A stretch of DNA of 64,000 nt, from the NCBI GenBank assembly GCA_947650365.1, contig OX393557.1, positions 31,960,209-32,024,208 on the forward strand, written 5' to 3'. The first letter of the stretch is position 1. Each line of letters starts with the position of its first letter. A program made the position numbers and the translations under genes. Under the pieces are notes generated by a model. The model saw only the letters and a list, made by a program, of their open reading frames with translations, ran no database searches and was not told the DNA's origin. Shown in pieces: positions 18,146 to 56,751 of the stretch. Source of the DNA: Chamaelirium japonicum. Lineage: Eukaryota > Streptophyta > Magnoliopsida > Liliales > Melanthiaceae.

Positions 18146-18953
<808 letters not shown>

Positions 18954-20463: not shown

Positions 20464-21132
20464 TAGGGCTGCAACCCGGGCGGGTTGAGGGGTCAACCAA
20501 TGCCCAACCCAAGAGGTTGAATCCGCTGCCCAAGCCCAACCCAACCTAAGGTCGAGTTGAACTTCCTTAGCCCAACCCAACCCAACCAAAGGTCCGGTTG
20601 AACTTCATTAGCCCAAGCCCAACTCATCAGGTTGATCAAGTTGTGCGGGCGGGTTGGTCGGTTTCAACATGATAAAGGAGAAATAGTCAATATATAACAG
20701 TTCCTTTGCGATAATACAATACATAAAGAAATTATTTATATTTTTATATAGGTGATGGTTCATCATTGGATGGATAAATACTCATCCAACAATGGCCATT
20801 AGAAAGCCGGATAAATATCTATCAAAGTTCCACCACAGTGCGACCTCAACTTGTATTCAACATATGGATTTTGATTGGACATATTCAATATTATATTATA
20901 TTATATTTACTAAATGGTCGGTTTCAGGTTGGGTCGGGTTGCGGGTTGCCCGAAGCCTCTGTCCAAGCCTAACCCGAATTGAGGTCGGGTTGGAATTTTC
21001 CAACATGAATTGAGGGGTTGGGATTTTCCAACCCATGCCCAACCCATACAAGTAAAATCCCAACCTAGGCCCGCCCAAATTCAGGTTGGTCTCGGGTTGG
21101 GCTCGGGTTGGCCCGCCCAAGTTGCAGCCCTA
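20464..21132. mobile_element. hAT-like MITE, perfect 8-bp target duplication
   Basis: The terminal inverted repeats are TAGGGCTGCAAC and GTTGCAGCCCTA. The perfect target duplication is GTATCTAT at 20456-20463 and 21133-21140. Both subterminal parts are rich in GGTTGGGTCGGG-type words, while the centre (about 20670-20915) is AT-rich. 669 bp, noncoding. Confidence 0.85.
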
Positions 21133-28654: not shown

Positions 28655-31600
28655 TGTCACGCCCCAGAAATTTGAATACCGATCCCTGGGGTGTGAGGTG
28701 AGAAAGGATGAGATTTTGGGTCTAGTCAATTATTTACACCAATTTGGGTTCTCACAAGGCTTCTTCTACGCTCTCTAATATAGAAAACAAGAAGGGAGAA
28801 ATAAAAGGGGAATATTTTAAATTTGATTTTTTGAAAATGTTTTTATTAAAAAGCATAGAAAGATAAATTATCAACAGAGAGAAGATATTATCTAGTCAAG
28901 CTCAACCTACAAAAGTCATATCCTCTCAGTATGAGTGACCTGTCGGTGCCACTACATGCTATATAACAGGAGTCTATCTGAGGGAGCACGAGGCTCAAGC
29001 CTCCTACGGCTAGCCAAGTAGTCTCACCCACTCCCTAACACTCAGGTGCACCAGTCTAGAGTCCCTATCTACAGGGTTAATCAATTTAGTCATTTATATG
29101 TACTTATATTCTGATCATGATCTATCCTAGGTTTGGGGCCTTGAGGAGAGGCCTACCCAAAAGAATTCAGCTGGAACTATTACAACTACAACCATATAAT
29201 ACTAACTAATTAATAAAAACTCTTATTCCAATATAATTACAATGTCTGAAGAGAAAAGACTACAACACTAACGTACTAAGCAGAAAGGTAAAGCTACAGC
29301 TCTAGCACCGCCTCTGGACCCCTACTGCTACTCCTGAGCCTCCGGACCTGCAACTGAGCCTACTCGTGGGAAATAGTAGCCCCCAATGGGAAATTAGGAG
29401 ATTAGCCAAATTAATGACTAGTGACATCCTAATAGTCTTTAATAATATGAGACAACTAATCTAAATAAATTAAGATAAGATCTATCAGTTCTAATAGGAT
29501 CAATATTGCAGAATGATACCTAAACCTATCAGTAGTCTATATTCACATGCAATTCCTACTGTCACTAGGTTATCTAACATAAAGTCCATTCAATGTTCTA
29601 CAGCAAATTAAATAAGACGTTCATCTAAAGTCACAAGGTCGTCATGTAAACAATCATACAATTCTAAATTCATATATAGATAAAACACACACTATTAAAA
29701 TGTGAACCCCGGATATTTTGTTCATCCTGCCCCCGGTCGGGCATTCCTATAGGGCCTTTTATTTCGATGTAGAGGGCCAACTCTCTCGCCGTGCATCCAC
29801 CAACACCATGCACTATTCACACAGATGATCATAAGGGGTTTTCCGTCTTTCACGGTGGAGCTCTACCGCCCAACTTGTTTTACTATGGGGACTTCAACTC
29901 CCCGGGACAGGGTTGCTAGGCCAATCCTTACTCGAGGGCACCTCCTATTGGCCTTACCACAACCCTTACCCGTGACCCCTAACCTACTTAACTTCGGTTG
30001 TACGCGCAGGGTGGTTCACGTCCCTTGCGCGCACGGGGTCCCTACCCTCTAACCAGGTAGATTCGCATATAACATCTTTCAACATATACACTGAAGCTAC
30101 AAAAAGTCTATTTAATGCTTAACAATTTCCAACAATTTATCACTGGTCCCGTACTCCTCTCGCAGCCTATGCGACATAATAAATAAATAAAGTAAGACAC
30201 TCATCCCGGTGACCCGTGTGCTAGGGTTGCCAACTCCTCTCAGGAAGGTGGGCTCCGATAATTATTAGTTATTCAATTTATTGTTTAATTTAAGGGAATC
30301 CTAATTACGATGTCCATACAATCAAAAGCAATCATTATTATTATTATTTTATTAATATTTTAAGCATGCGATGCCGGACTCGCGACTCTGCATGCAAGGC
30401 GGGGTCCACTTGACCACATGCGACGATGCCCGGCGGGACCCGCATGCAGTGTCATGGACACCTACCCTTAGTTATTCTCATTTTCCACTATTAAAGACCA
30501 CGCAAGGGTAATAGATGTCACTTGGTTGTCGATCATACACGACTCCGGCTTGCTAGTTGCTTCTGATCCGTCTCCGCTAGATCACTACGATCAAGGTCTA
30601 ATAATAACTACAGCTCCGTATCACAATTCTATCGATTAAAACAAAAGAATCTACGATGAGGGTTCTATATCAAGGATAGTCATGCACCCTCGATAGGGGA
30701 CCAACATTGAGTCGACAACACGCAAATCCGTGCGACTGAAGAACTAGAACCTAAACAATACTAGGTCAATCAAGTAATTAGAAGCTAAGCCTACTCATCG
30801 AATCGGGCTCGAAGAACCCTTTCCGATGGTTCCAGTTTTGCTGGAATCCGACTTCGGTCGGATGGTTTCGGGTTGAACCACACAGAACTGGTGAAACCAG
30901 TCGCATGGATGGGTCACTAGGGTAGAAGGGGTTATAGGGTTATCCTTTTAGGTTTAATAGGTGGTACTCAATGTTCTGAGCACGATGCCGCTGGTTTTGT
31001 CTGAATCCGAGTTCGGATGATAAAACGGTGGTCAAACCATGATACCACGATAAAGATCGGGCCCAAGGATAAAACAAGGTATTAAACATTATAATTACTG
31101 TGCTAAACTATGGCCAACATGTAGAATTTTTTGAGCTGGTCGAAATGGCGCTGGTTTCATCCAATTCCGAGTTCGGACGGAGAAATGGCAGTCGAACCAA
31201 AATTGACTAGTTCACGGGTCTGGTTCAGGTGAACCAGACCGGTTCACTATGTGGATCGGGTCGGGTCTACAAAGGTTGGGTCGGGTCTGCAGTAGGTCTA
31301 CCAGTTCGGGTCCAGGGTTAAACGGATCGGATCTGGGGTTAAGTCACACTAACCGGGGAAATTATGTATATGCCCCCCCACTCCATCTTCTCCACGAGAC
31401 CAGTGGCAGGCTAGTTCCTACGAGACGGTGACCGAGACCGACAGGAGGGGCGGCCTGGAGCACCGGCGAGCGCTCGGCCGGCCTCTCCCGCACCACCCCC
31501 ACTAGGAGGCACGGGGGGAGGCGGCCGGAGCGGCCGTCGGAGCCCGAGAGCTCGATCGGAGGGGGCTTCACGAGGGGTTGGTCGGAGGTCGGTGGTCGCC

Positions 31601-34439: not shown

Positions 34440-37400
34440 ATGTCGCCTGCTGCCGTTGATTCTGACTTGCTGACGATGAAGACCCATGAACGGGTTGCAA
34501 ATCTAGCTCTATTGGGTATGCTTTGTTTGCTCTATCTTGAAGGCTAATGCTTTAGATCGTTGTCTGGGGCTGCAGATAACCTGAGAGCTTTGTCTCCTGT
34601 TAATTAACCTGAGAGCTTTGTTGATGAATGCATTGTTGCTAACTTAAAGAGCTTGTGATAGTTTAAATATCTAAATTACTATTTTGATGTCTTTGTCAAT
34701 AACTAATAAAAAATGAATCAGTCATCTCTTTGATTTAAATTTAGAACTTTTTTAAATTAAATTTAGAACTTAAGTGCAAAGATGGAATTTATGTAATGTG
34801 CATAGGACTAAGATTAGTACATCTGATTGATTAATTAGATTGAATTGCAATTAACAATGTTTTAAAAAACGGAAGGCGGAAGGTAGGCGGTCAAGTGGTT
34901 TCAAGGCGGAAGGCGGAAGGCGGACGACTAGGCGGGCGCCCGGAGAAAAAGGCGGGCGCCCACCTATATAAAATATATTTTATATATTCTATATGTATGT
35001 ATATATATAAATTCATAATTCTATATAAAAAAACAATAATAGAAAGTTTTACATATGCAAACATCAAAACAACCGATCTGAATATAAAAGTTTTATGAAA
35101 AGGAAGGAGGGAATCGGGTGGGGTCAGGGTTAACTGCGAGGCAGGGGAAAGAGAGCAGCTTTTGAGCCTTTGGGATATCTAGGATATCTAGTTATGTAGT
35201 GAAAAGGGAGGAGGGGATCGAGTGGGGTCGGGGTTTTATGAAAAATTATTACTAATCTGCCCGCCTGCCCGGAGCCTACTTGAAACCCGCCTAGGCGGGT
35301 CGGATCCCGCCTAGGCGCTCGCCTTTGTTCAACCCGCCTGCAGTGCCGCTTAATGCTGAAGCGGAGCGGCCAACCCTCTAAAACGCCTAGGCGGCCGCCC
35401 GGACCGCTTTTTAGAACAGTGGCAATTAATTAACAATCTCATTGAAACAATCAATAAGGTATTATATTACAAAGAAGCATATTATAGTAAGTATAAGTAC
35501 CCCACTGCGCCACACACCAAGGCCAGCCTTCCTCGAGTCCTTTTGTTTGGAAACACAATCACACACAACAATCCTGAACAATGCTGAATCTTTGTGCAAC
35601 CCGTACACATTGCTTGTCATGCAGGACAATCTAGTGGACTAGTCTATGTTTTATGATGTGAACTGACCAAAATGATGCAATCAGATTTTAAAATTAGCAA
35701 ATGGAATTTTCACAGTTTCGTATGCAAACAGGCAGATATGATTAAATCCTTGTCTAGTTGTAGGCTAATGCAACTACTATGTAATGTAACTTATGTTCGT
35801 ACATTGTTACTGAGATATGCAATTCCCCGAGCAATTATACCAACAAGCGCAATAAGCTCAGAAAGAAAACATAATAAATTTAAAACTTTCCCTTGGGTCC
35901 CTCAAGTATCTGATAAACTAATAGTTAAGAGCAGAACGCATACTCGATGCAGGTCATGCTTTGTGCTTTGTCATAGGGAAGTCCGCACAGTTCAAGTGTC
36001 AGATCAGGCAAAGTGTAATAAACTAAGACCAACTCTTCTATGTGGATGCAGATCTACAGCGTACTTGATTTGCGTGTTTGCATGATCCTAAGGCTTTCTA
36101 TAGAATACGGATCCTGATGTAGAGATGTGGTGCGTGTGGGCTTGCACGAAAGCAAAGCTTTGAGGGCTATGTGAAGGGTTGTAGGATGTCATAATTCAAG
36201 GTTTGGAATGGGTAATGGTGTGGCTATGTTATAGCTTTGGTACAGAGGGTTTTAATGATTTTTCAGGCTGAGATTAGGGAATTTAAAGATTAAAATCCGA
36301 TCTTAACACAATCAGATCTGATCGTTGTTTGATCAAATTGGCCTTCAATCGGTTATGAATCTTGGGGCTTTTGTGTCTAAAGGCTTTGGATGGATTGGAT
36401 GATGTTTGCGTAAAATTTGTGTAATATGGATGGCTCTATGTCTAGTTATAGTGAGATTTGTGGCAGATTTCACAGGTTTTAAGTTTTTGGACTTGAATTC
36501 GTGAACGATCAGCGACAGAAGCTGATGGATTAAGACGGTGAACGATCATCAACAAAAGATGATGGATTAAAGCGATCTACGACTGGTTTACTTTCAACTG
36601 TCCACGACTTCAGAATATTAACCAAAAACACAAGAAAAAAGAGAAAACATGTTACCAATTAAACCGATAGGTACCGAACCTCCCGTCTCAAAGGTTCTCT
36701 CCCTGGAGGCTCTTGAATCCAAAACACCCTAAAGCGAATTATCCATCGATCTAGAATCGGATTGAACGAAGCAAGCAACCCAAATTAGAAACGAGGGATT
36801 GAACGAAGCAAGCTATCCGAATTAGAACCAAATCATTTGAATCAGATCCGAGTCGATTTAGATTTGAGTTTATGAGTTTTCTTATTTTTAATGTTTTGGC
36901 TGAACAAATTGGCCAAAACCGGGTCTCTTTCTTTTCCCCCTCAAAACACCCATTATATACAATAGGATTACACAAGTTATGAGCCAAACCCAAGAGAATT
37001 TGGAATACTGAAACAGGAAAACCGATCGGCCGGTCGGTTTGCCTCGATCACGTCTACACCGATGCAAGTAGTCAATCCCGATCAATCTACAAGAACTTTA
37101 ACCGATCAACCAGTGAGTCAATTTTTCAGAACCCCAAACTGATCGATCAGTTTTCTAGGTCCGATCGGTCAGCCAGAAAGTTTCTCTAAATCTGAAATTG
37201 AGACACTAAACACCGATTTCTACCCATGTATATATTTTATGTATGACATGATATATCTTGCAAACTACCTGTTTTTCTGCAGGAGAGATGTGACAGATAT
37301 AAACTCCCACCTTCCAGTATAACATATGCTGTATATTTCAACATGTGTGCAATATAGGTTATTATCACATTCTCTGTTTCTGGGTCATGATATTGCAAAC

Positions 37401-40400
37401 AGATATTTGTTTAGAAAGATGTGCGGCATGTGCCCAATGTATCATTTTATTTGTAAGGAGATGTACTGGGAAAACAATTTTTTAATAACCGGGACAAAAC
37501 ATGCAGATCTATTATGTTTGTGTTAGCGAATTCTTACATATGCGGTTCTAAATGTAGTTCTTTGTCAAAAATAATGTCAACAGTGTAACATATTATGTTT
37601 GTGTAGGTATTTAGTCAATATATTTATATGTGGCTCTGAATGTAGTTCTTTTGTCAACAATTACGGCACCACTGTTGAAAGCTGCTATTGGTTTTTGTGT
37701 TTTTTGCATGGACCAACAATGCAGTTAGTTCACTATACTTAAGTGATTCAATTACGTCTATAGCAGAAAAACTTAATATTATATCATGTCCATTTCATAT
37801 TTAAACTTTATTCATTTATGATATTCGACTCAGGTTTATTATTTTACAGCTTTAACCTTGGCACCACTTGTCTTCAAAGTAGATCCCAATTGGAATGTAG
37901 TATTGACGGCATGTCTGACTGTTTATGTCGGTTGCTACCGGTCGGTCAAGCCAACTCCACCATCAGTAAGCACCGATAATCTTCTTACACTGCCTTTGGT
38001 ATTTTTTTATGGTGTAAATTAACTAGCATGTTGCCATTGGGCTTTCTTCTGAAGGTTGCTTGTAATTCATGCAGGAGACGATGTCAAACGAACATGCCAT
38101 GCGCTTTCCTTTGGTCGGGAGTGCAATGCTTTTGTCATTGTTTTTGCTTTTCAAGTTTCTCTCGAAAGATTTAGTCAACGCTGTACTCACATGTTACTTC
38201 TTTGTGCTTGGGATCATCGCCTTTTCGTATGGTCTTCGCCATTGTCTAAGATAATGAGATATTATCTTCTATGTAAATTATTATAATTAGCACTGGACTC
38301 GGTTATTGCAGTGTCTCAACTGTTGGATTTTTATTTGCAGCGCGACGCTGTTACCTGCAATTAAGCGTTTTCTTCCTAAAGATTGGAATGAAGACCTCAT
38401 AATCTGGCACGCGCCATATTTCCGCTGTATGAGAATTATTTATCCCTTATATATATATTTTTTCACCAACTTAGCATTTCAAATATCATATTGTTTGATT
38501 TCTTGTTCTGGGTCTGTCCATCATTTTTGCAGCTACTATCAGCTTTTCACTTCTTGCATTGTTAGTGACCTTAGTTATAGACTTCATGCTAACCTATTAC
38601 AGATGGCTTGCTGATTGATGCCTGGCATTATTTTCTTTTGGTTGGCATTTACCTAGACTCATAATCTTTGATTGTACTAAAGCATCTACTTTTTAGTTTT
38701 TTCTTTTCTTATTTTAGAAATCACATACGGAATTTGATTAGTTAAGCCAATCATACCACTTTGGCAGGACCATATCTCTTGGATGTTAATGTGGATGTTT
38801 AGTTTTGGGTACAGAAACTTGAATAAGTAGGACTTATTTATACATTCGATATGTTATGCATTTTATGCATATTTTCGGTTCTAATCAAGATTATTTAAGT
38901 TTTGTCACTTGACACGTTACGTACAGGGTAATAAAACAAGAGACATCGGTATAAGAGCCGTGGAATACACAGATTTGGCCTTCTTAAGGAGAAGAGGGAC
39001 GGCCTCTACCATTTTTTTTAATTAATTGAATTCTAAGGTAGCAATTCTTGGGAATTCAATTTCCGAGAATCGCAATTGCGAGGAGTTTTAATTTCACAGT
39101 TTGACAAGTGAGAATTCATGTAGGAAATAAAAAATTATGTTCTTTTGATCGTGATAACTTTATTTTTTTGATACATTCAAAGGGGAGGTCACAATCGGAC
39201 CTTCGGAAGGCGCCACAAGCTAGCGCTGCAAGAGAAGTCCACCATCAATGGGGGGAAAACGACACTCGGCGGTAACAAACTCGCCACACAGGTGATGAGA
39301 GGCGCCACGACTGGCACCACAAACAACAAAACAAGCAAAGGAGTCTAGATCCTAGCCGCTGCTTGCAGGCGCGGGGAGAGACCGCACACCGGCGGTGAAA
39401 AAAACCCCAAAACTACAACAAAAGCACAAGCCACCAAAAAACACAAACCAAAAGAGGTGCATCGTCGCCAGATCCAACCGCCAGAGAAATAGTTGAACTC
39501 GAAGCCAAGATCGTCGCTCCGCTGTCGAACTGTTGCCTTCACCGCACCACCGGGATCCTCCACCGTCCAGAAGGGGCGACTCGGAAAACCACCGGCGGAG
39601 AACCACGACGCCGGGGATAGGTTCGACCTCCTTGCTGCATCCAGTGGTAGATCCGGCTCGTCGCCAAGCAGAAACTGTCAACTAGCCGGAGGGGACCGCC
39701 GTGACTTCTTTGTGTCGAAAACAAGAACTTTGGCGATTTGGAGAGCTCCTATCTACAGGGGGAGAAAGGGGTACTAACACACCCTAGAAGCCCAAGCCGA
39801 TCCAAGGCTTGGCCTACCCGCAGCCGCCGACGGTGGCATCCAAGTAGGCCAAGCAACGGCTTCAAGGAACCCTAACCCTAGGCCAAAGAAGGGTGACCGT
39901 GATAACCAAACATAGGCATTCAAATGTCTATGATATAATCTAGTAAAACTAAAAAGGCAAATGAGTGAACATCATGATATATAATAAAAACAACTATCAC
40001 TAGGCTTAAGCAATTAAACAAGTAAAATTAAAATTAAAAGTAGCACATATTGTCTGAACTAACTTATACTTAACGACTCAAAATAATAATTGTCAACAAA
40101 ACAAGACTTAAAACATGATTGCTAAATATACTTTAGCAACCATTTCTTTCTCGTTTCTCTACTAAAGAGAAGAATATGCATGCAAGCCTCTTGTGACTCT
40201 TGTCCTGGACATATTCTATGGCACTAATAATCTCTTCCTCAATTAACCCCAGAGTCTTCATGAGTTCTTACGTTACCCTGTTCGTATCAACGCACATAGA
40301 AAGATCTCATATGCATTTGGCTATATCCTAGAGGTTTGCATTCAAAGCAGACAATGCTTCCTTAGATTTTCGTGTATTCCTCTTCTTCGTTGAGCCTTCG

Positions 40401-43400
40401 ATTACCATTTAAGTTGAAGTGCCTATTGGTGTTGTGGGAAATGGATAAATATCTTAGCTAATCCAATGACATACCCTTCAACGTCTTGCATATTACTCTA
40501 CTGATCAGCCATATCAACCTGAACACCATTCAGGGCACTGGTAGCAGTAGGTAGCCGACAGTCAACTATATAAGAATTCAATGCTTCGAGCATTTCTTTG
40601 GGTCATTCCACCCAAACCCCCTTGTGTTTGTCAAATTGATTTTGGTCATACACCAAGTACGCTATTTTTCAACCTACTCCGTATGTTCTCTTTTTGTCAG
40701 TGTGGGATGGTAACATCTATAGATAGTAATCCAGTGCCTGGGTGTTCAGGTCTGTACATGAGAATTGGTCCATACTGCATTGAGTGTGATGTTGGGACTG
40801 GGGTTCCATTTATTTCCTACTTGATTATTTTAATGGCTACACTTCATCCTACCCTCGAAAAAGGGCAATGGTCTTTGATTTTTGTATCTACTTTATAACT
40901 AAAATATAGTTTGTCAATTGATCTATCTTATGGATACTGGCTACTATCAGAAACCTATTGTCTAGAGCTATTGTTGCTGCATAAATAATACTTTCAGAGG
41001 ATTTATAGTTTAGACGAGAGTTTTAACTAGGGCTGGCAATTTCGGACCCTACACGGCAGACCCGACACGAAGTTAGCGTGTTTGGGTCAGGGCTAAACGG
41101 GTTCGGGTTTTAAACGGGTTGACACGATAGACCCGTTTAATAAACGAGTCGGGTCCGGGTTTAGCGTCTGGACACGGTAGACCCAGGAAGACACGTTTAA
41201 AATTCAACGGGTCGGGTCGGGTCTACCCGCAATCCGATATTGTAATATATAGTATCAGCAGGTCTATCGGGTTAGATCGGGTCGAGTCGGATTGGGTCGG
41301 ATCGGGTCAACTGAATAAACCCATGTGGTAAACGGGTCTTATCAGGTCTACCCGTTTATAAACGGGTCGGGTACGGGTTGAGGATCTAGACACGATTAGT
41401 TAAACGAGTCGTGTCCGGGTCTAGGGGTTTTGGACACAACCCGAAACTAGACCCGACACGACCCCGACCCGACACGACCCATTGCCACCCCTAGTTTTAA
41501 CATACTGGAGTTCTTGGAGAAATTTATGTGCTACCATCTTGCATAAATGGAGTGGATAGAGGGAGGGGGTTCTCTTGTGGGTTTGCGCCGTTTTTTTTTT
41601 CCAATCCTTTTGTCTCAACAAGATTCGTGTATCAAATGTTTCACTTAGATACATCTAATTGCAAAGATTCAGCTTTCTTCTACTTAACTTGAGCAGTTGA
41701 TGAATTGAATATTCCTCGAGTGTTTTGTACAATTCAATAAGAAACTGGGTACCTGGAAGCTCTGTATTTGTGCGTGCTTATGTGAATGTCAGCTACATCA
41801 GTTTCATGTTATAAATGGTGCCAGTCACCTTTAGGAGTTCTAACAAAATCTGATTGTCATGATATATATTTTCCCAATCCTTGCTGCTATTGGGCAGGCT
41901 TAAAACAGTATAAAATCTTTATTGTTTCCCGAGCATTTTGTTTTGGAATGATGTTAGGTTTCAATATTCCTTTGATGCAGCTGCTTCAGTGGAGTTTACC
42001 AGGTCTCAAATTGTTGCGTCAATTCCAGGAACTTTTTTCTGTGTGTGGTATGCTTCACAAAAGCATTGGCTAGCAAACAATATTTTGGGAATTGCATTCT
42101 GCATTCAGGTTCGATTTGCCACTAAATTATAAGTTGATTGTGACAGTTCTGTTTAGTGCAATTCTATTATTTTTCTTTCACCTCCCCTATTAGTATATGG
42201 GATGCTTTCAAATCCTTTTGTGCTTTATTGGAAAATATTAACCGTATAGGAACTCTGCCCGATTAACTTTCGAGTATGGGTTTAGGTACCTCAATATTCA
42301 TATCCGAAACCAGAAACCCGATTGCCCCTCTAACTTGTGTATACTATATGATACAGTTTGACATATATATAGTGTACATATACCCCATATTTGGATCATA
42401 TGTCATTAAAACAAAAGCAAGGAAGTGTTGTATTCTTGCACTTACCATTATGGCCCTACAAAATTTACCAATAAGCCCTTATGCCTTTCAATATTTCATG
42501 TGTCCATATGGACCATACCTTATACTAAAATGGCTATTTTTAATTTGTGTATGGGTTAAAGGATCCATAGATAAGCAAGGGTTGCACGTGCAACACACGT
42601 GCCCAGCGAACTAGTCCTTAGCTTCATTTTTCGTTTAATGTTCCCTTTAAATTTCTGCATCTATAAATTTCTGCACCTATTTTAATTCTTGTTCATAGAT
42701 CTAATCATAAGCCGAGATCCACCAATAAACCCCGCATCAGCCTTCCCAAACCCAACATCTCGGCTACAGATTTTTAATTCTAGAAAATACATACTTTTTG
42801 AATTCCTTCATGAATCCCTTGTTCGGATCATAAAACCCTAGACCTCATCCTTGTTGGTAATAGGCTTCGCCTAGTTAAATTTTTTTCCATCTATGAGCAC
42901 TTCTGTAGTGTAATTTGAGTTAAATTTCAGATCTGATCTTATCTTCCCAATATGAAACTGTCCCAAATCACACCCAATCTCAAAGCCCATCAAGTTCCTT
43001 TCCTTTCTTCAATCATTTTCGTATCAGAGTTCTATCTCTTTGATTCCGCCTGCATCAAAACCCTTGTATAGCTCCTAGTTCCCTATTCCCTACACTTTAG
43101 CCTACCATAGCTAGTTCTCTTTAGAACTTTTCTTGTTTAATACACAACAATCCAACTTTCATATCAACATTATTGTATGAACAAGCAAAAATTTCCCCAC
43201 ACCCTCCCAAACCATCCTAAGAAACTAGCAATATTTTTCGCATAATTATATGCTAATTTTGGTTGCAAAGGCACACATGATAAATGCTGGGAGATGAGGA
43301 TGACGAGTTCGATTTGCGGTTAAACTGGGAAGGATAAATTCAGAATAAAAAAAGAAACCATACGTAGCGTAAAGTTGTTTCGGGCAATGGTTTGGGCGTG

Positions 43401-46400
43401 CGAAGACGACTGGAGGAAGCACCTTTTTTCTTCGGGGGAGGTGGTTGGGGAGGTGGGGGTAGAAGAGTAAGGGGTTGTGGGGTACAGAGCATAAGATTAC
43501 TTGGCTATGTACTGGTAGACATGCCACCCTTCAAAGCAATGGATAATGAATAGGAATATTTTAGACCTTTACCAAACAATCAGCGACTTGGATGATGCAA
43601 AATTACAGGTAGATAGAGGATTGGGTTCAATAAAAGAGCTAGTTTAGGCACTTTGTTTTGGCTGATACAGAAATATAGAGTATAGAGGATTGCTTTCATG
43701 CCAACATTACTTTATTATTTTTAATATTTTGAGGTTATGGATTGAGGTGAGTTTGGTGTTTATATTCTAATTGTTTCCTTGTGTTATCATCTCCTTAATC
43801 AATTTGTTATTGTATAATTTTGATTATTAACTTTGTCATCTTTCTTCTCCTCCCTATTATCTCCTTTAGGTAGATTCCCAGCCAACTGTGAGACATGCTA
43901 GGATCCTTTACAGTTTACACAATCGCGTGAAGGTTGACTTCCATTAGAAAACTCTACCGATCCTTTGGTGCATCATACTTGTCTAGAGTGTGTTCCATAG
44001 GCGTCCAGGTTGTGTTGTTGTAAATTTTGGTCTTAAAGCCATATCTTCTTGATCCTTCGACATCAGACATGCTGTGTATGGGTCCTATGGGATATGCAGT
44101 TGAATCTAGACATCAGACATGCCTCCTATATTCCATTTTTATAATTTATCTTTTGAAAAGATTGGAAACAATTTGTGATCACATCCACGATCCCAATCCT
44201 GGATACAAGAGGTTACATCCAGTATGATTCTTTTAATTTTATTACGAGATCCATCCTCACAACATAGATTTTTGAAACATTGATATCACCATTTCTTTAA
44301 AGTTAGTGAGACTTCTATAATATGCTCATGCCTCCTATATTCCATTTTTTATAATTTATCTCTGGAAAAGATTGGAAACAATTTGTGATCACATCCACAA
44401 TCCCAATCCTGGATACAAGAGGTTACAACCAGTATGATTCTCTCTATGATTTACTACGAGATCCCAATCCTCACAACATAGATTTTTGAAACATTGATGT
44501 CACCTTTCCCTGAAGGTTAGTGTAGTGGTGCTTAGTGGACATGTGTATATACTTGTATCTAAATGTGAGACTTGTATATAGTGTTCCGTACATGCTTATA
44601 CACCCCTTCGTCTGTGTTGTAACCTCTTTATATTTTGAAATTTGTAATTTTTTGTATTTGTCCCTCACCCTAATGCTTGGATTAGAAATTTTCGTCCGTG
44701 CTCGTATCTTTGTGGCCCCAATTTACGTGTATCATGCCATACTAAGACACGACATGCATCGGCATGGAAAATTATGCAAGGCGCTAATTGGTTTGCCATG
44801 ATACAAGAATTTTTTTAATCTTTTTGACATCTGAACTACCTATGTTTTTAATTTTATTGACCACATGAACACAAGTTTTTATGCTCCTATAGAAATTTAA
44901 CATACTATATGCCCTTGTTACTTGTGCATGTTGCTGGTGAACGTGCTTTTAACATGTACGTCACTTTAGTTAAACATATCCAACAAATGAACTAATATTC
45001 TTAAGTAGCATCATTGTTTAACAAATATAGTAGATGATAAATGCATGAACATTGTGGTTCATTTGAGCAAAGTATAGTAAAAAGACATCTATCTCAGATA
45101 GACATGCATATATAATGCAAGTCTTGCATGAGAAAGATAACATAGTTTGCATAACTAGCAAATGATGAATATGAAAATCATATTCTCAAGCCTAACCATG
45201 TATTATTATTAGTCTGTTGGATAATTATATTACTTGTCATCATCCAAGTTTTATCCCATCAAGATGGGGTGAAGTATAAAGGCGATTGTCAAAATTTTTC
45301 GTCTGGCTGTGAACCTGATGTCAACCCTTGGTACCGAAAGCCTGACCATGACAACTTGGCAAAAGAGGGACCTGCCAAGAAACCTGAGAGTCTGATTGGT
45401 GGTAAAGGGTCCTATCTTGTTGAGTAGAATGACAAAAAAAAAGCACAAACGAAATCTTATGTTGTAGGCAATTAAAATAACCCTTTATAAATCCTTCTCA
45501 TAAAGAACCATCTATCCTAATCGTCGATTATTTGGCGTCGGCTTTATAAATCCTTTTGTCCCATTCATTTATAATAAGTGCTATCTTTGTCTCAGTGCCA
45601 TCTTTTCGATATCCTTCTGACAACTTCCATCAACGTTATTTTAGGTCCTCTCTTTCTTAGTCTATCTAAATAATCCTATATGTATGCTTAATGGTTGGTG
45701 ATTTATCTAGCTAAAAGCTTTTAAAGGAATATGGGTAGCTACATAGGTTCCTATTTATTATATATATTATTAATATTCAACTGTTTCCTTTTTGGTTTTC
45801 CTATGTATTGTTTGATTAAATGTTGACGAACTCACATGCATTTTCTTAATATGCACAGATTTACTTACTTGAAGGACGGTTTAACAGTTCGAAATTAGTA
45901 GAGTAGTTGTATGGTAGTTCTATCCTTTGGATATTATTTAACAAACCATTCTATGTTTTGTAGGGAATTGAAATGCTATCATTGGGCTCATTTAAAACTG
46001 GTGCCATTCTTTTGGTAAGAAAAATCTCTATTACAAACACATATGAGCTTGGTTTCATGTCCTTACTGTTTTGTTGTGATGTATTCATCACCATTCACCA
46101 CTGAAATGATATCTGCTGTGTCAACCCGTGGTACATCCTGTCATTTTCAGTATATAATATTATATCAAGCATCATTCATACTTTTATTTCTAGAATTACT
46201 CGTTAAGAGATGTATGTCTTAAGGATTCTTGGAGTTCTAATGGCCAAGTATCTTTGTCAACATCTTGGTCCTAGGGATCCAATTACATATATAAAAATGC
46301 AGAAGATTACTTAATTGTAATTGTTAATTGAGAATACAAAACATTCCATAGATCCCCCTATTCTGTTACTGGAAGAATCAGCTGATTACTACTTCTGGAG

Positions 46401-49400
46401 CAATATTATTGAAGACCCATAATGTACATACAATTCATTTAACTGTTCATAGTAATCTGTCCTTGATTTCCAATGTTCTGTAGTTAAATCAGAGTGTGCT
46501 GGGAAGTGTTGATCTGAAAGTTTTAGGTTCTTTGAGCAAAGCATCTGCATGAAGTGATATGCACTATTCAATAAAATTAAAACATGGTGATTGTAGCCTG
46601 TGTACACACAATGTGTATTGCTACAACTCCCACCGAACTCCCACCGGGTTTCTTGCTGCCCTGTTGTGGATAGCAAATAAGACGTGAGTTCCGTACACCA
46701 ATTGTGCATTCAAAAGGCATAAAAAGGTTGCTAGATCGTAACCCCTTCATCATTTTGTAATATATTGCGAGGGAGTACTTGTCACAAAACATTAGCTACA
46801 TGATTAGATAATCATATACAAGGGTACATTCTTTGAAATTTGACCTCGACACTGTTTATGGTATGTTGTGTGCAAAAGCATCTATGTCATGACTATTGGG
46901 TAAAAGTTACTGATTTAGTGTGTTATGTTAACCGTCTAGTAGCAGACAATGAATTCTTATTGTAGTATTGCATCTTGTCTATATGCAAATCAATCTTTTC
47001 ATGAACCATATGCCTAATTGTATGGTGGTAGTCCTCTGACTGATCAATTACTATGTTTGATGTCTACTTGAATGTGTTGCATTAGCATTACTGGCATTGG
47101 CTAAGTATTACCCCTTATCATACCTAAGGCTAGCATGATTTACATGTAGCACTTTACTGTGCTGATACTAGCGCTCACAAGCCAGGACAGATTTGCGATG
47201 TCGAAGATTCACCAAATGCACTCTATGATACACTGGAAAAACCTTAAATATGGCATCTTGTCTGTCATTAATTATTTTCAGCGGGAAGGTAGTATGCTTT
47301 GAATAATTGTCACGAATTATCCTCTTCTTGAAGCCTCAAAAGTCCAGTTGAATTCACAGACTGTTGGTAATGACAAATGCTAAACACATGCTTTACACTA
47401 TATCATGAATTCTAACCTGTAAACTAATGCAAATTAGTAGACTGCAAGAGAAAGAATTCAGAAAAAGGATAGGTTCCCAACTTATAAAATAAACCTCACT
47501 ACTTTTACTCTTTTATTAGTTTTTATTTAAAAATAATTTTAATGATAAACCTCACTATTTTTCTGCATTCTAAGAAAAGGGTGTCTTCATTTATTTTAAT
47601 GAGACATGGTGATCTTCCTTTTAGCACCTGGTTTTACTTATGGCAATCATTATTGTGATTTGAACTAGAAATGCTGTTTATTTTTTAATTTATTACTATC
47701 TATAAATTGTATGTCTAACTTATCATTGCTTTTGGCTATCTCCAAATATAGGCTGGACTTTTTGTGTATGATATATTCTGGGTATTCTTTACTCCGGTGA
47801 TGGTTAGTGTTGCTAAATCTTTTGATGCTCCTATAAAGGTTAGTTCTTTCATTTAGTAGACAACAATTTTATGTATGTGTAGAATCTGTTTGTCAGCTTT
47901 TGTGCAAACTTTTTGGTGGCTTTTATACCCAATTTACTTGCTATTTTCTATCATGCAGCTTCTATTCCCAACTTCAGATTCTGCACGACCATTCTCCATG
48001 CTTGGGCTTGGTGATATCGTAATTCCTGGTCAGAGTTTTTCTTTTTCCAGTCACATTCAGTTGTGGTTACCTTTCTAATGATTTTCTTCTTTTGATATTC
48101 GTTAAGCCATGATTATTTGGCTCTATTTTATCTATCAATGCAGTTCTGAAATGACTGGCAGGTAGGTGCTGTCAAAATTGTCAAAAGAGAAAGAGGGAGA
48201 AACTGGATTCCACTAGGATCGAGCATACATGGCATAAACCAAGTAAAATGACCAAATTAATGATTAGTTTATACTTTATCGCCCACCTAAAAAAGAAATA
48301 AATATATAAATGAGTAAATAAAGATAAATGGAAAATAAAAGCACATGAAAACACACACGATCATTAATATACCATAAGGACATACATTAGTGAGGCCTAC
48401 ATGGATCTCAGTTGGACTTTTTGAGCTTTATTATAAAAAAACTACATCAATTCTGTTATAGCCTTTTTTTTATGGCCCAAACTAATCAAAAAGTGGTGAG
48501 AATAACCAATTTAACCTTAACAACCTGAGTCTGTGTACACTAGCTTGTCGCCATCTTCCACATATCATATTCCTGTAGATAGAGCAACCTTGCTATTTAT
48601 ACCTCATCCTTTATGCTCTTCTTGATTCAGATTATTTAGGATCTTAGTGATTGACAATGGTGTTTTCCTACATTGTACTCGCCGTAGATTTGTCTGCTAG
48701 ATTCCTATTCGGAATGCAAACATATCAAATCGGTTTCATGTCAAATCTTTTTTTTTTTTGGGGAAGCAGATTACACTAATAAAGGCAAACAACACCACAT
48801 ACAATCACATCTCCGTCACGTTGGAACACAGAAAAACCTGACTAGACTATGTTTCAGATTCAAGCTTCTTTAAGTCTGATTTGATTGGTTTTAGCTTCTG
48901 GTTGACTCCAATTGTAGTATCATGAACCCATATTGGTTAGTAAAATGTGATTACTGCTTCGAAATGGTCGACACTGCAGTTTTTACTTTCAGCCTTTTTT
49001 CGAGTCACATTTGATTGGTGATAGAATGCTGATATTTATTACATGGTTGATTCAAACCAACTGCTGGTGTGCGGTATTAGCAGTACTTCTTTAGCCTTGA
49101 GGTCATCCTTGATTTCAGATTATACAATTGGTGAATGAGGGATCGTTGACGTCTAGGAATTATATACGAAATCATTAAACTGCCTTGGTGAAAAATATAT
49201 AATAGAAATCATTTTAGATGAAGTTGGTTTGTGTGTGTATGTCATGACCCACTGATGAAAAAGGAAGGGATTGACTAACGGAGGGTAATGTACTCAAATG
49301 ATATACTTGACCATTGATACATTCATTGGTCTAGTATATAATGGCTTTTTTCGGTATACATGCAAGTGATACTATGTGGAGTTTAGCATTTTAATATAGC

Positions 49401-50265
49401 CTCTATGTGTTTACATAAAGTGCAATGCTTGTAATATGGACTATGGAGTTTTATGTGATGCTTATAGATCAATGCTTTATTACTTGAAGAGTGCCATGAT
49501 CTTGGAGTTTCTAAAAACACTATTTTATTGTATTTACAAGTAACTATCTAAGAAAAGAATAAATCCTCTCCATGATTCAAATATAGAAAAAAAATTATTA
49601 TACGGAACTTAATTGTAATGATGGAATATGTGCATTATTCATACAAGTAAGAATAATATATCAAATTGACTTAATTAATAGATTTAAGTGCCTTAAGTAA
49701 AGCAAACAGAGGGTAATGTACTGAAATGATATACTTGACCATTGATACATTTATTGGTCTAGTATATAATGGTTTTTTTCGGTATACATGCAAGTGATAC
49801 TATGTGGAGTTTAACGTGTTAATATAGGCTCAATGTGTTTACATAAAGTGCAATGCTTGTAATATGGACTATGGAGTTTTATGTGATGTTTATAGATCAA
49901 TGCTTTATTACTTGAAGAGTGCATGATCTTGGAGTTTCTAAAAACACTATTTTATTGTATTTACAAGTAATTATCTAAGAAAAGAATAAATCCTCTCCAT
50001 AATTCAAATATAGAAAAAAAAAATTATATGGAACTTAATTGTAATGATGGAATATGTGCATTATTCATACGAGTAAGCATAGTTTATCAAATTGACTTAA
50101 TTAATAGATTTAAGTGCCATAAGTAAATTAAACATTTCCACTCAAACATTAGATAAGAAGTCATAATAAAAAAGTAATGCAACAAGTACGATGAAATTAG
50201 TTGATGTATGCATTACTCTTAAACTTTTTATCTGATTTTCTTCTTTGCCTTCTTTTATTGGCCCC

Positions 50266-50296
<31 letters not shown>

Positions 50297-53200
50297 AAAA
50301 AAAAACTCCCACCCCACAACCAAAACAAAACACCCACCAACCCACATTTTAAAAAGAAAAAGGATATTTATGTTAGGTTGATAGCCCATCATTAAATTTT
50401 GCTCAAACATTTTGTGGAGTTCTTTTTATATTCTTTTTAAGTCAAGTTCTAAAGCTGGCTCCATATTGATGAGATGAAATCTAGGATGATGATGATCGTT
50501 AATACATTCAAGAGTTAACAATTGAATCATAAGATTTAGCCATTCAAGTTTAAGTTGCAGTTGTATTCTTTGAAGAACAATGTTTTAAAAAGCGTTAGGT
50601 GGAACTAAGGCGGTAGGGGAGTTCCAAGGCGATAAGGCGGAAGGTGAATTCCTATGAGGCAATGTTCTAAAAAGCGCTAGGCGCTAGTTGGGCGATGGGG
50701 GACCTTCTAGCGCCTAGGCGTTTTTGCGTTTTTTAATTATTTTTATTATTATTTTGATATTATAGATAATGTATATTTTTTAACTTACTACAAATTCAAT
50801 ATTATCCTAACTATTATTTTGTAGCATGTATCATTTGCATAACCATAAACTTAAGATTAACAAGAACAAAAGCAAGCAGGATATTATCTCAGATAATATC
50901 ATAATATCCATAATATTAGAACATTCCATACTATAAATTTATTATCACCAATAATAAAATAGAATCTATACACGTTCTAGTGCCTAGGCCCGCCTAGGCG
51001 GTCGCCTAGCCCCGCTTATTCGAGCTGCTTTTCTGCACCGCCTAGGACTACGTTGGGTGGTGGGGGGACCTTCTAGCGCCTTGGCCGCTTTTTATAATAC
51101 TGCTATGTGGATGCCTAGAGATTAAGGTGCCTAAAATATTATCAAACATTTTTTACTTAGAATTTGCATAACTATTATGTTTATAGTGTCATCCTTTTTT
51201 CAGGAGTTCACAATGGGCCAATGGTGCAACTATTATCATTCTTTCATGTGGTCACAATGAGTCAAGGGATCTACTACACAATAGTGTACTAGTTAAAAAA
51301 AAAGAGAAGACTGAAATGAAGAAACCAAAGGAGACAAATGGGAGAAAGGGAGCTTACGAATGACTGCTTTTGACGATAATATTGATGACCTATCTCTTAT
51401 GGATCAAGAAAAACGGGCTTCAACTTAATGGATGCGGTCTAAGGCAGGAGCCTGAACCGCTTTTTAGAACAATGTTGAAGAGGTACCGGTCATTTCTTCA
51501 ATTCGGTGCAAGTTTAGGTATTATGGGCTGCACATGTGGCAACTTATTTTGTTATAACTAAGTAAGCTTGGTGAATTAAGAGTTATGTGCGATGGTATAA
51601 AGTTTGGTTATTTTGTCGTCGCCGTCGTCGTTATTCTCCTTTCGAGGGTTATGTAGTTGGGGTATGTCGGGTTTAGTAATCTATCAGATCATACGTTTGA
51701 ATTAAAGCCTTTTGATATCTACTTTGCCATCGATAAACTACAATCTATGTTGCCAAATTGGTCTATTTACTATTTGGATTGCTTCATCTTCTGTACCAAG
51801 GATAAAAATATCGGTACATTTCGTGAAAAAGTCTCAAAATATCTTGGTTTCATGAAAGACCGGCACACAATACTATAGGCAGTATCAAACGGTACAAAAA
51901 CTTTGTAGAAGTCACGATATTCGAAATATTGTGCAAAAAACCCAAAACTTGAATGATCGCGATATATCGCACCGATAGGAGGGACCCACACCACGTGGGG
52001 GGGTAGAAGGCGGTGCACCGAAAGCAACCGGAGGACGATATTTCGTGATTTTTCGTGCGAAAATTTTTACATTGCAAGATTATGCGAAATATTGCGCCGA
52101 CGGCAGGGCCCACACCATGTGGTGGCGGCAGAAGACGATGCACTGAAAGCGTTGGAGCAAAATTTTATCAAAATATTGTGATATTTTGCGAAATATCTTG
52201 GTTTCATGAAAGACCGGCACACAATACTATAGGCAGTATCAAACGGTACAAAAACTTTGTAGAAGTCACGATATTTGAAATATTGTGCAAAAAACCCAAA
52301 ACATGAATGATCGCGATATATCGCACCGATAGGAGGGACCCACACCACGTGGGGCGGCAGAAGGCGGTGCACCGAAAGCAACCGAAGGACGATATTCCGT
52401 GATTTTTCGTGCGAAATTTTCATATTGCAAGATTATGCGAAATATCGCGTCGACGGCAGGGCCCACACCATGTGGTGGCGGCAGAAGACGATGCACTGAA
52501 AGCGTTGGAGCACGAGGGTTGGCAAAATTTCATCAAAATATTTTCAAAATATTGCGATATTTCGCGAAAGCTGCTCGAAATTTTGTTGTTTGGCAGTCTG
52601 GCTGTTTTTCGTGGGGTTTCTTCTGGGCAACCACAGTTGTTTGTTAAATTTCGCAAAATTTCGCAAAATTTCATGGAAATCTGGCAGATTTTTCCTATTT
52701 AAAGGTTTGTGTGTGTGCGTGTGCCTTCTGGTTTTGGATTGCTGTTCTCTCTCTCTCTCGCATGATTCATTAACATAAAGATAATGAGTCTGATGATTTA
52801 TCCCAAATTATGGATGGTTATATGAATCCTGCATTTACATTGGTTCTCCGTGGTTAACTCCCTTTTAAGGGGAAGTCGCCGTGAATTATTTTTCACGGCT
52901 TTGATATAGATCTGTTTTGGTCTTCCCTCTTGTTCAAAGATGAATAACACAAGAGATGCATCTTTAGAATCAGAGTAATATGAGATTAATGGACACTCCC
53001 AAGACTAGAATTTGCAATGTTATCTTGGACAGGATAATACCATAGTTTTTTTTTTGTGTTTATGTTTCTGTCTGCTTGTTTGGGAGGATGCTTGGTTAGT
53101 GTTTGTCAAAACGCTTTGTTTGATATTAATTCAACAAGTTCTTTTTTCATCAGTTATATTTTCTTTCCCTATATTGATCAAACACAGTTATTTCTCTTCA

Positions 53201-53866
53201 GGTATTTTTGTTGCATTGGCTTTGCGTTTCGATGTGTCAAGAGGGAAACAAAATCGCTATTTTAATAGTGCGTTCTTTGGGTATACTCTGGGTTTGGTCC
53301 TTACTATAATTGTGATGAATTGGTTTCAAGCTGCACAGGTGAACAAATTGTAGCTGTCATTCTTCTATATCCATGCTTTTGGGGTTATTTTCATACACAG
53401 ATTCAACTTGTGCTTAGCTTCTTTTTTTCCTTTGGCTCTTGCAGCCTGCTCTTCTATACATAGTACCTGGTGTTATTGGATCTGTGGCTGCTCACTGCTT
53501 GTGGAATGGGGAAGTAAAGCCGGTTGGTACTATAACTTGTTTTTTCTATGTTTCATTTTCATGGTTTTATTTTTATAATTTTTTATTCCTTGGAATTTTA
53601 ATTTAAAATATTTAGCTCTTTTAGATAGCAACATGGAAAGGGATTGTGAATATTTAGAATAGTGAAACTGAATAAAACTGCTTGAAAAGAATGAAAGGCA
53701 TCTATATAAATATGTTAGCATAACTTAAGGTTTTTCTGACGTATAAATGGGACTTATTTCTAACATACATAAATATGCTCAAATAGAAAAGAATCATTGG
53801 TTAAAGTGAATCTATTTAAATTCGTCTTTATTTGCACCTTCATCTTTTGAAAATTATTATTCAACA

Positions 53867-53923: not shown

Positions 53924-56751
53924 TAATAATGTGTGTGATGCTTATATGGATCATGATTGTGTTACTCAAGATTTCTTAAAGAAGGCTATATAACACCTTT
54001 TCATTTATTTAGCAATTTTCTGGGTAGATAGAATATGGTCCCCTTGGCCTGCTGCCCGTAGAAGACATACATGCACAACTAATAGATACTGAACAAATTA
54101 TACTAGTACAGTTAAGTGTTATCAGATCCAGAGGATGTTATATTCAATATTTCTATTAATTTCATATGATAATCTGCATGTTTTTAGCATTAGTTGTGTT
54201 GTATGCGAGTAAGTATCCTACTTCATTGCGAGAGTGCATTTCTTTAGTTGGCTTGTAGCGTATCTTTCTGTGAATGCAATTCAACATATTTGAGAACGCA
54301 AGTTTTTGAAAGCATCTTTATGATCTTGATGAAGAAACCTTCTATTCATAAATGCATAACCCACCCACCATCCCCATCCAATAAAAATAATAAGAATTAG
54401 GGTAAATTACACATAGACCCCCTGTAGTTTGACCGATTGTCACTTACACCCCCTCATGTTTAAAACCCTTCAAAAGCCCCCTTATAGTTTGAAAAGCATA
54501 TCACTCGCACCCCCTCCAGGGGTGCCTCCAGAGGGGGTCTATGTGTATGGTTTTTCAAACTATAAGGGGGCATTTGTAGGTTTTTAAACATGAGGGGGTG
54601 TAAGTAATATTCGGTCAAACTACAGGGAGTCTGTAATTTACCCTTATAATTAATAAACATAAGCAAGGTTCTAAAAAGCGCTAGGCGCTAGTCGGGCGGT
54701 GGGGGGCCTCCTAGCGCCTAGGCGGGGCCGCGGGGCCTAGGCGGCGCCTAGGCGTTTTGCCTTTTTTTAATTATTTTAATTATTATTTTGATATTATAAT
54801 ATATATATATATATATGTTTAAAGATTAATATAAGTTCAAGATTATCCCAAACCATTATTTTAAAGAACAAGTATATAACCATAATTCAAGATTGAGTGA
54901 TTAACAAGAACAAAAGCAAACATGGTCTGCCTGGCCAGCCTCAGACCGCCTAGCCCGCCTGGTCCGCCTGGCCCGCCTGGTCAGCCTCAGCCCGCCTGGC
55001 TCGCCTGGTCCGCGGTGTCCGCCTGGCCAGCCTCAGCCCGCCTAGGCGGCCGCCTTGCCCCGCCTAGACCGCCTAGCTCCGCCTGGGAGCTTGGCCGCTT
55101 TTCTGGAGCGCCTAGGGCCTAGGCGAGGCGGTAGGGAGCCGCCTAGCGCCTAGGCGGCCGCCTAGACCGCTTTTTAGAACACTGAACATAAGAACAAAGA
55201 ACAAAAAAGTTTGATGCTTGTCCCATATAATTAGAGGCTGAGATAGATTTCTAATGAGATAAGGAAAAGGAGAGGGACGCCAACTTATTTATGTTGATTG
55301 GTTGGATGCTACTTGTAAATGGTCAATTGACAATTCTGACTTTGGCAATATCAAACAATGTCGGGGATGGTTTTAGTCTTCCATGACATCTGATTGATGT
55401 ATTTCGGAGCTTCTGAAGCACTTGAAGGTCAACAACGAATGCATGGAACATGTTTTTTTTTTGGTAGTCAGCTACAACCTACTGGAAACACAACACTGGT
55501 ACTAACCCCCCGGCCAGGGTTCAAAACTTGTCGAGGCGGGCTATCCATCCTCGACCCGTCAGGATTTTAACTCCTCTCCACAGCAGAAGCGTCGAACGTG
55601 CGACTTCTCACCCGGATTGAGAGGTGCTTTGCCATCTGGGGGTGACCGCAATCATGACAATGAACATGTATGGGTACAACATGTTAGTTAGGGTGACATG
55701 TTTACATTGAAGGGAAGATACAAGTTTGGATTACTCGGTATATGAAGATACAGAGGGAATGACTGTTGGTGGACCCCCCCCTATCAGCTCAGCACATAGC
55801 AGTCTATTTGGGTTACTAATGGGTCTTTGTTTAGATTATGATATTATTTGAAAGCATGGAAGATGGTCAAATGATAGTGTTGGAGACAATGAACAACCTT
55901 TTATTTTTTTGGAAGGGACCAAGTGCTCAGTATGTCACCTGTTAGTGCGTTGGACAAGATAGACCCTGGATCGAATCACAAGATCAAGAGAAATGCAATT
56001 TTTAATAATTTCCCAGGCTGGAATAGTGGAATGGCTCGACACTAAGGCGAGAGGGAGCCACCCCCCCCCTACAGAGCGGGAGAAAATACGTCGCAGTACT
56101 TATATGAACCCTTGACCAAGGCCTCGGATTGCACATGTCGAGTTATTGGGTTTTATCTATTCAAATTTCATAATTGGATATCTATTACAGCATGCTATTT
56201 TCTTTTTATAATTTTATACATCTATTATGATTTTATATTATACAATTGTATGCATGTATATTAGACTCGGGACTTTCCTGTTTGGTTCCATGGAGTTGGA
56301 ACTTGGAACGCATGCAGTCAATACTGCACGTTCCCGCGCATTTGGTTCCGCAAAGTTGCCAAAAACCGATGCAATTGCAACTCCTGCCTGGCCGATTTCC
56401 TATCAAAACTGATGTAGTTGTAACACAGTTTTTTAGCTGCGTGTTCCAACTGCAGCAGTTGCGGCACGCACGTTCCAACAACAATGAACCAAACAGGCTG
56501 TAAGTGTGGTATGTTCTGCATGATGTGTCATCTGCTCCATGATCTTGGATGTTTTTTTTTTCTCTTTGAATTATTTCCCCATAATATTTGCCTTTGATTT
56601 CTTCCCATGGCCTGTAAATTGAACTGATCTCAACATTTTTATCGTCGTGCAGCTGTTGGAATTTGATGAATCCAAGTCTGCGACCGATTCGAGTGGTGGC
56701 AGCTGTTCGTCGCAAGATGGAGACGCCAATCTCGAGAAGAAAGTGGATTAG
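34440..56751 (+). CDS. SPP: Signal peptide peptidase (SPP), 11 coding exons
   Basis: Multi-pass intramembrane aspartyl protease of the ER that cuts leftover signal peptides within the membrane. Coding exons: 34440-34515, 37850-37965, 38075-38226, 38341-38426, 41981-42108, 45964-46014, 47752-47838, 47959-48028, 53202-53338, 53445-53522, 56653-56751. They join in phase into 1080 nt (359 residues plus stop). All introns have GT-AG ends. Catalytic motifs are YD (D210, in LFVYDIFWVFF) and GLGD (D251, in SMLGLGDIVIPG), with the PAL signature at 302-304. The order and spacing match plant SPP. The protein ends in KKVD, a KKxx ER-retrieval signal. Known plant SPPs begin at the Met that is residue 13 here (34476), so the true start may be there, giving 347 residues. 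The frame is intact, so the gene is likely functional despite introns up to 5 kb loaded with transposons. It lies divergent from the aspartyl protease, about 17 kb away. Confidence 0.96.
34855..35421. mobile_element. hAT-like MITE, CCTAGGCGG family, copy 1
   Basis: It starts CAATGTTTTAAAAAACGG and ends CCGCTTTTTAGAACAGTG (inverted repeats). The perfect 8-bp target duplication is GCAATTAA (34847-34854 and 35422-35429). The subterminal GC-rich parts repeat GGCGGAAGG and CCTAGGCGG words, with an AT-rich centre. 567 bp, in SPP intron 1. Confidence 0.85.
35430..37849. other. Rest of SPP intron 1, no gene seen
   Basis: It contains a 138-codon open frame (35672-36085) with no recognisable motif. 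It also contains a stretch around 37018-37190 of CCGATCGGTC/GACCGATCGG-type words, probably transposon debris. Confidence 0.5.
39159..39894 (-). mobile_element. Poly(A)-tailed non-LTR retroposon, 736 bp
   Basis: It is flanked by a 12-bp target duplication with one mismatch: GATCGTGATAAC (39147-39158) and GACCGTGATAAC (39895-39906). On the minus strand it starts ACCCTTCTTTGGCCTAGG and ends in an A-rich tail (plus-strand TTTATTTTTTT). Its 3' part matches positions 1-226. It has a GC-rich body with open frames on both strands but no reverse transcriptase or pol III promoter that I can see. It lies in SPP intron 4. Confidence 0.75.
41028..41493. mobile_element. hAT-like MITE, GGGTCGGGT family
   Basis: It starts TAGGGCTGGCAAT and ends ATTGCCACCCCTA. 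The perfect 8-bp target duplication is GTTTTAAC (41020-41027 and 41494-41501). The interior consists of AAACGGGTCGGGT and GACCCGTTTA-type words in both orientations. 466 bp, in SPP intron 4. Confidence 0.87.
42109..44118. other. SPP intron 5, left part, nothing recognised
   Basis: AT-rich intron sequence with short open frames only. No domain or element boundary is seen. Confidence 0.55.
44119..44536. repeat. 209-bp tandem duplication in SPP intron 5
   Basis: Two copies (44119-44327 and 44328-44536) both begin GCCTCCTATATTCCATTTTT and share AAGATTGGAAACAATTTGTG and CCTGGATACAAGAGGTTACA. There are a few substitutions and small indels. Confidence 0.85.
46015..47751. other. SPP intron 6, nothing recognised
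   Basis: 1.7 kb of AT-rich intron sequence without recognisable coding or repeat structure. Confidence 0.6.
49281..50136. repeat. 428-bp tandem duplication in SPP intron 8
   Basis: Copies 49281-49708 and 49709-50136 are very similar. Both run from GAGGGTAATGTACT through TATACTTGACCATTGATACA and GGACTATGGAGTTTTATGTG to TTAAGTGCC.TAAGTAAA. Divergence is a few percent by eye, so the event is moderately recent. Confidence 0.9.
50262..50304. repeat. Poly(C)-poly(A) tract
   Basis: About 25 C residues are followed by about 18 A residues. Exact lengths may be assembly-sensitive. Confidence 0.9.
50578..51474. mobile_element. hAT-like MITE, CCTAGGCGG family, copy 2 (outer)
   Basis: It starts CAATGTTTTAAAAAGCG and ends CGCTTTTTAGAACAATG. 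The 8-bp target duplication has one mismatch: TTGAAGAA (50570-50577) and TTGAAGAG (51475-51482). It is split by the nested copy at 50660-51102 and lies in SPP intron 8. Confidence 0.8.
50660..51102. mobile_element. hAT-like MITE, CCTAGGCGG family, copy 3 (nested)
   Basis: It starts CAATGTTCTAAAAAGCG and ends CCGCTTTTTATAATACTG. The 8-bp target duplication has one mismatch: CTATGAGG (50652-50659) and CTATGTGG (51103-51110). It has the same GC-rich subterminal words and an AT-rich centre. It inserted into a member of its own family. Confidence 0.83.
51837..52690. repeat. 354-bp tandem repeat with CGATATTTCG words
   Basis: Unit 1 (51837-52190) and unit 2 (52191-about 52545) share AAATATCTTGGTTTCATGAA, GGCAGTATCAAACGGTACAA and GAAGTCACGATATT, plus a block with AGGGACCCACACCACGTGG. 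A further subrepeat within each unit (CCCACACCACGTGG and CCCACACCATGTGG) is in inverted context. Many GATATTTCG/CGAAATATC words suggest a decayed MITE amplified in tandem. It lies in SPP intron 8. Confidence 0.8.
53872..53922. repeat. (TC)n(AC)n microsatellite
   Basis: About 10 TC repeats run into about 16 CA repeats, in SPP intron 10. Confidence 0.95.
54399..54644. mobile_element. Foldback MITE with AGGGTAAATTACA ends
   Basis: The terminal inverted repeat AGGGTAAATTACA/TGTAATTTACCCT extends into arms of about 110 bp. CACTTACACCCCCTCATGTT and CCCTTATAGTTTGAAAA on the left have reverse counterparts on the right. The centre is CTCCAGGGGTGCCTCCAG. No target duplication could be agreed on. It lies in SPP intron 10. 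Confidence 0.75.
54664..55184. mobile_element. hAT-like MITE, CCTAGGCGG family, copy 4
   Basis: It starts CAAGGTTCTAAAAAGCGC and ends CCGCTTTTTAGAACACTG. The perfect 8-bp target duplication is AACATAAG (54656-54663 and 55185-55192). The right subterminal part is an array of CCGCCTGGCC, CAGCCTCAG and CCGCCTAGG words. 521 bp, in SPP intron 10. Confidence 0.87.
55453..55661 (-). mobile_element. tRNA-derived SINE, second family
   Basis: A plus-strand T run at 55453-55462 is its poly(A) tail. Flanks GAACATG (55446-55452 and 55662-55668) form a 7-bp target duplication. Near its 5' end the minus strand has an A-box-like TGGCAAAGCACC and a B-box-like CACGTTCGACGC. It differs from the Au-like SINE and lies in SPP intron 10. 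Confidence 0.65.
56269..56502. mobile_element. MITE with CCTGTTTGGTTC ends
   Basis: The ends are CCTGTTTGGTTC and GAACCAAACAGG, inverted repeats of the kind seen in plant PIF/Harbinger- or hAT-type MITEs. The inner part is partly palindromic (GTTGGAACTTGGAACG against CGTTCCAACAAC). It lies in SPP intron 10, about 150 bp upstream of the last exon. Confidence 0.6.

Follow-up and report, generated by a model that had tools for sequence, protein, structure and literature searches.

Four short hAT-like elements, one nested in another, in an apparent signal peptide peptidase gene of Chamaelirium japonicum

As a rule, hAT transposons have short inverted ends in which the second base is A and the fifth is G. 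In Arabidopsis, the ends of Tag1 begin with CAATGTTTT, and the SIMPLEHAT elements are non-autonomous and of hAT type. SIMPLEHAT2 is cited in PMC4081062 as a polIV/polV-dependent 24-nt siRNA locus. For Ac, PMC3260210 describes cooperative binding of the transposase to AAACGG repeats within the outermost 200 bp, with about 200 bp required per end. Certain Ds1 elements are mobile although they lack the hexamers, and maize Ds-like elements that carry hexamers showed no movement when tested, so that such words are not sufficient (PMC3260210). In Hermes, two subterminal repeats are arranged as a quasi-palindrome to which two BED domains bind (PMC10368747); these domains bind the left end only, and their site needs an AT-rich neighbour.

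Here, we examined four repeats (A to D) in a window of 64,000 bp of Chamaelirium japonicum DNA. We conclude that they very probably belong to one hAT-type family and are its non-autonomous, MITE-like members. Their transposase would be encoded elsewhere, and the GC-rich words are its probable subterminal binding sites. All coordinates refer to the forward strand. Element A (34855 to 35421; 567 bp, GC 0.47) is flanked by a perfect 8-bp duplication, GCAATTAA/GCAATTAA, at 34847-34854 and 35422-35429. Element D (54664 to 55184; 521 bp, GC 0.55) likewise has a perfect duplication, AACATAAG/AACATAAG, at 54656-54663 and 55185-55192. Element B (50578 to 51474) spans 897 bp, or 446 bp after subtracting the nested element C and one copy of the C duplication, and its 8-bp duplication, TTGAAGAA/TTGAAGAG, has one mismatch. 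Element C (50660 to 51102; 443 bp) is inserted in B between CTATGAGG (50652-50659) and CTATGTGG (51103-51110), again 8 bp with one mismatch. The duplications and the nesting show that these repeats were inserted, and B predates C because C sits within it.

The four elements have inverted ends of 17 bp in common. Searching the window for CAATGTTCTAAAAAGCG at up to three mismatches, we obtained eight sites, which are exactly the eight element ends (2, 1, 1, 0, 3, 1, 1 and 1 mismatches in order of position). Only 0.25 sites were expected, and none of 100 shuffles reached eight. The ends start with CA; A stands at base 2 in all eight and G at base 5 in seven, the exception being the right end of C. 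An 8-bp duplication is present at 4/4 insertions (two perfect, two with one mismatch), while 8-mer pairs elsewhere in the window at the same spacing agree within one mismatch in only 0.05-0.10% of cases. The original prediction had named the same four coordinate pairs, the shared ends and this division of the duplications, and all three were borne out by the end search and the flanking 8-mers. Compared by eye with nTnnnnAn, the target preferred by hAT elements, the B duplication matches at both positions and those of A, C and D at one each, four duplications being too few for a preference. End profiles gave no convincing fifth copy in the window; the best match outside the elements covered 20 positions at 29857-29876 (E = 1).

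No hAT domain was found in the 119 window ORFs of at least 80 aa (those of very simple composition were dropped first), nor in the 10 ORFs of A and B, of which 3 are among the 119. The elements measure 443-567 bp (B without C, 446 bp), and no domain was found in them. Captured gene fragments in A or B were considered and rejected; the four weak Pfam matches there, the best with E 0.036 and 14.3 bits against a cut-off of 27.3, are put down to chance. Together with the inverted ends, their A2/G5 form, the 8-bp duplications and the nesting, the lack of visible coding capacity supports the hAT-like family that had been proposed for these repeats. Elsewhere in the window, a coding stretch resembling a plant aspartic protease was placed by eye at 13978-14733 on the reverse strand (Pfam TAXi_N in two and TAXi_C in one of the 119 ORFs), and ORFs resembling LINE-type reverse transcriptase were placed by eye at 61088-62358, also on the reverse strand (one ORF of the 119 matching RVT_1 and one matching zf-RVT).

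Compared with Ac/Ds, which has 11-bp ends and AAACGG arrays, elements A to D have 17-bp ends of another sequence and the GC-rich words AAGGCGG and CCTAGGCGG. We rejected membership of the Ac/Ds family proper, the ends being CAATGTTCTAAAAAGCG-like and different from those of Ac; by eye, A shows one AAACGG at its left end. On the left, A and B begin as the ends of Tag1 do, a lead drawn from the end letters. SIMPLEHAT resembles A to D, by description, in being non-autonomous and of hAT type, which makes it a lead only. The Ds1 and Ds-like elements of the maize Ac family likewise combine short inverted ends with 8-bp duplications, and their subterminal words, also repeated, are read by the transposase (PMC3260210). 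The Hermes site with its AT-rich neighbour is unlike the GC-rich words seen here (PMC10368747). In a survey (PMC3991616), the BraHAT MITEs of Brassica were assigned to hAT by their 8-bp duplications, as A to D are, a likeness by description; 19 of 20 MITE families in that survey exceed 50% A+T, whereas D is 55% GC. Among the papers listed by literature text searches (CCTAGGCG with hAT, ttctaaaaagcg, end and array words, MITE terms), none was seen to describe the family, sequences being seldom printed in main texts. Exact TTCTAAAAAGCGCTAGGCG had no match in viral or in prokaryote contigs, and D with short flanks had no blastn match among plasmids; these are non-plant collections and carry little weight.

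We also scanned the window independently for 8-bp duplications (up to one mismatch) adjoining matching 12-bp ends that start with CA or TA. The scan gave eight matches, namely A, B, D, three elements with TAGGG ends and two doubtful ones (12929-13574 and 54797-56227); C was missed because its three end mismatches put it outside the cut. Six of six windows shuffled in three-base blocks gave no match, though such shuffles destroy repeats too. Offset controls of 12, 20, 33, 50, 77 and 100 gave 1, 0, 1, 0, 2 and 0 matches. At offsets 3 and 7 the counts were 70 and 62; of these, the three matches listed per offset fall in a TA microsatellite at 18.1-18.8 kb. A near-perfect inverted repeat lies at 18364-18673 (154-bp arms, 99% complementary, 2 bp apart), directly followed by a long TA microsatellite. 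The TAGGG(C/G)TG-ended elements (20464-21132, 41028-41493 and 58255-58769) have perfect 8-bp duplications, GTATCTAT, GTTTTAAC and CCTGCCAA, respectively, and are presumably the first hAT-like family of the original prediction. The latter two have ACCCGTTTAATAAACGGGT-type repeats in common. At 12929-13574, an array of CCCATTCGGGAGGAAGA-type repeats has identical CATCTTCTTCCT ends and flanks that match at 7 of 8 positions; it may be another transposon or just a repeat array.

By its sequence, the host gene is a signal peptide peptidase (SPP) gene. One of the 119 ORFs matches Peptidase_A22B in Pfam (E 1.3e-11), and tblastn with an Arabidopsis SPP query placed exon matches in order on the forward strand from 34476 to 56718. 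They begin with a weak match to the first exon (34476-34520, E 1.7) and continue with a strong match from 37852 onward, two exons at 38075-38437, one at 41944-42108 and part of 45868-46014. Strong matches follow at 47752-48030 (two exons), 53201-53338 and 53442-53525, and the last exon is a weak match at 56653-56718 (E 8.6). All four elements had been claimed to lie in SPP introns. For B and C, which are bounded by the strong matches at 47752-48030 and 53201-53338, this is firm. For A and D it is likely, and less firm because one bounding exon of each is weak (the first for A, the last for D); both weak exons are in order and on the correct strand. The intron of B and C also holds tandem duplications at 49277-50134 and 51837-52512, with units of about 427 and 354 bp, whose matched blocks are 92-98% identical.

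GC-rich words are concentrated in the elements. Allowing one mismatch, CCTAGGCGG matches 31 times in the window against 4.94 expected, a count reached in none of 100 shuffles, and 29 of the 31 matches lie within the elements. CTAGGCG occurs 14 times within the elements and never in the remaining 62,015 bases, CGCCTAG 17 times within and once in the remainder, and CGCCTAGGCG is a perfect 10-bp palindrome. In the left arm of A, AAGGCGG words stand in tandem (34903 to 34924; 3.1 copies, 100% matches). The right half of D is a GC-rich array of 9-bp period (54929 to 55084; 16.4 copies, 70% matches), and D also has an array of 46-bp period with 2.5 copies. In 40-base bins, the core of C is down to 7-30% GC and that of D to 5-30%, and part of A has 10-28%. 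The architecture predicted for the whole family, an AT-rich core enclosed by a GC-rich array, describes A, C and D and fails for B without C, which has no CCTAGGCG and no CCTAGGCGG array; its two GGCGG words are both in the left arm, and the five near-matches across the B span all belong to C. The ratio of observed to expected CpG is 1.1 in A, 1.08 in C and 0.9 in D, against 0.58 in B without C and 0.71 in the window. C and D align over 216 bases of their left arm and AT-rich core with 87.5% identity, A and B have a common left end (83% over 65 bases), and the interiors otherwise differ between copies. This pattern hints at two or more subgroups that have their ends in common.

Defining the left arm of an element as its first 130 bases and the right arm as its last 170, we counted 12 GGCGG and no CCGCC in the left arms, and 6 GGCGG and 15 CCGCC in the right arms (Fisher p 5e-5, words within one array not being independent). 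The strand on which GGCGG predominates thus differs between the left and right arms; the left arm of C and the right arm of B contribute neither word. Aligning the arms directly, we found that C and D have a module of about 50 bp close to both ends, which is directly repeated and not inverted. The copies lie at 50677-50725 and 51042-51092 in C and at 54677-54731 and 55107-55161 in D, each right copy in the orientation of the left. The direct alignment scores are 51 for C and 59 for D, against maxima of 31 and 28 in 500 two-base-block shuffles, respectively. The left copies in C and D, folded as short sequences, are predicted to form hairpins. The arms of A have a 21-base direct match (score 32, shuffle maximum 30), and those of B have no direct module match, 248 of 500 shuffles attaining its score. 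In inverted alignment, the score of A was equalled by 8 of 500 shuffles and that of D was 37 against a shuffle maximum of 36; beyond the 17-bp ends, the arms pair poorly in some copies. Three elements were folded whole as single-stranded DNA, and each did better than its 100 shuffles, with z of -6.46 for A, -3.56 for C and -6.42 for D.

Judging by how the ends are built and by the 8-bp length of the duplications, the mover was probably a hAT transposase. Such an enzyme, encoded elsewhere, would recognise the ends and cut and paste the elements, and the AT-rich core would be passenger DNA. The AAGGCGG and CGCCTAGGCG words near the ends are candidate subterminal sites for its DNA-binding domain, by analogy with AAACGG for Ac, and on that analogy the GC-rich words are probably transposase-binding sites. 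The absence of CCTAGGCG from B, the direct rather than inverted module of C and D, and the poor pairing of the arms count against this explanation. So do the maize Ds-like elements that failed to move despite their hexamers and the left-end-only binding in Hermes, although the mobile Ds1 elements that lack hexamers lessen the weight of B. The words might instead have arisen by repeat expansion through slippage and hairpins within ordinary hAT MITEs, which would leave the hAT assignment intact; we consider this a tentative but serious possibility. The 9-bp and 46-bp arrays of D, the tandem AAGGCGG words of A, the folding of A, C and D and the lack of the words in B all fit such expansion. However, A and D have the words in both arms with an opposite-strand bias, which slippage alone does not predict. 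A bolder proposal is that the palindromic CGCCTAGGCG and the hairpin module, present at either end as a direct repeat, constitute a transposase-recognition code, an end architecture distinct among plant hAT elements. We regard this as unlikely; if true, movement would be sensitive to CG methylation.

Since no transposase has been linked to the elements, the superfamily call is drawn solely from the ends and the duplication length, which leaves room for another superfamily such as Mutator. That origin is very improbable, as the duplications are 8 bp at all four sites, whereas in the plant survey Mutator duplications measure 9-10 bp and those of hAT MITEs 5, 6 or 8 bp (PMC3991616), and the ends start with CA and have G at base 5 in seven of eight. 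Alternatively, the repeats could be a non-mobile part of SPP with a regulatory role or a role as structural RNA, given that all four lie in one gene of this window and that strong single-strand folds are seen for A, C and D. The target duplications and the nesting, which show insertion, and the differing interiors make this the remotest of the explanations; no Rfam match reached the gathering score across the window.

In summary, elements A to D probably represent a familiar type of transposon and not something new, and apart from the points that follow they are a matter of routine transposon annotation. One plant gene appears to have been struck several times by a hAT-like family, and the nested pair yields a relative age. 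The GC-rich arrays of A, C and D retain CpG and may therefore offer a testable, candidate case of methylation-sensitive transposase sites.
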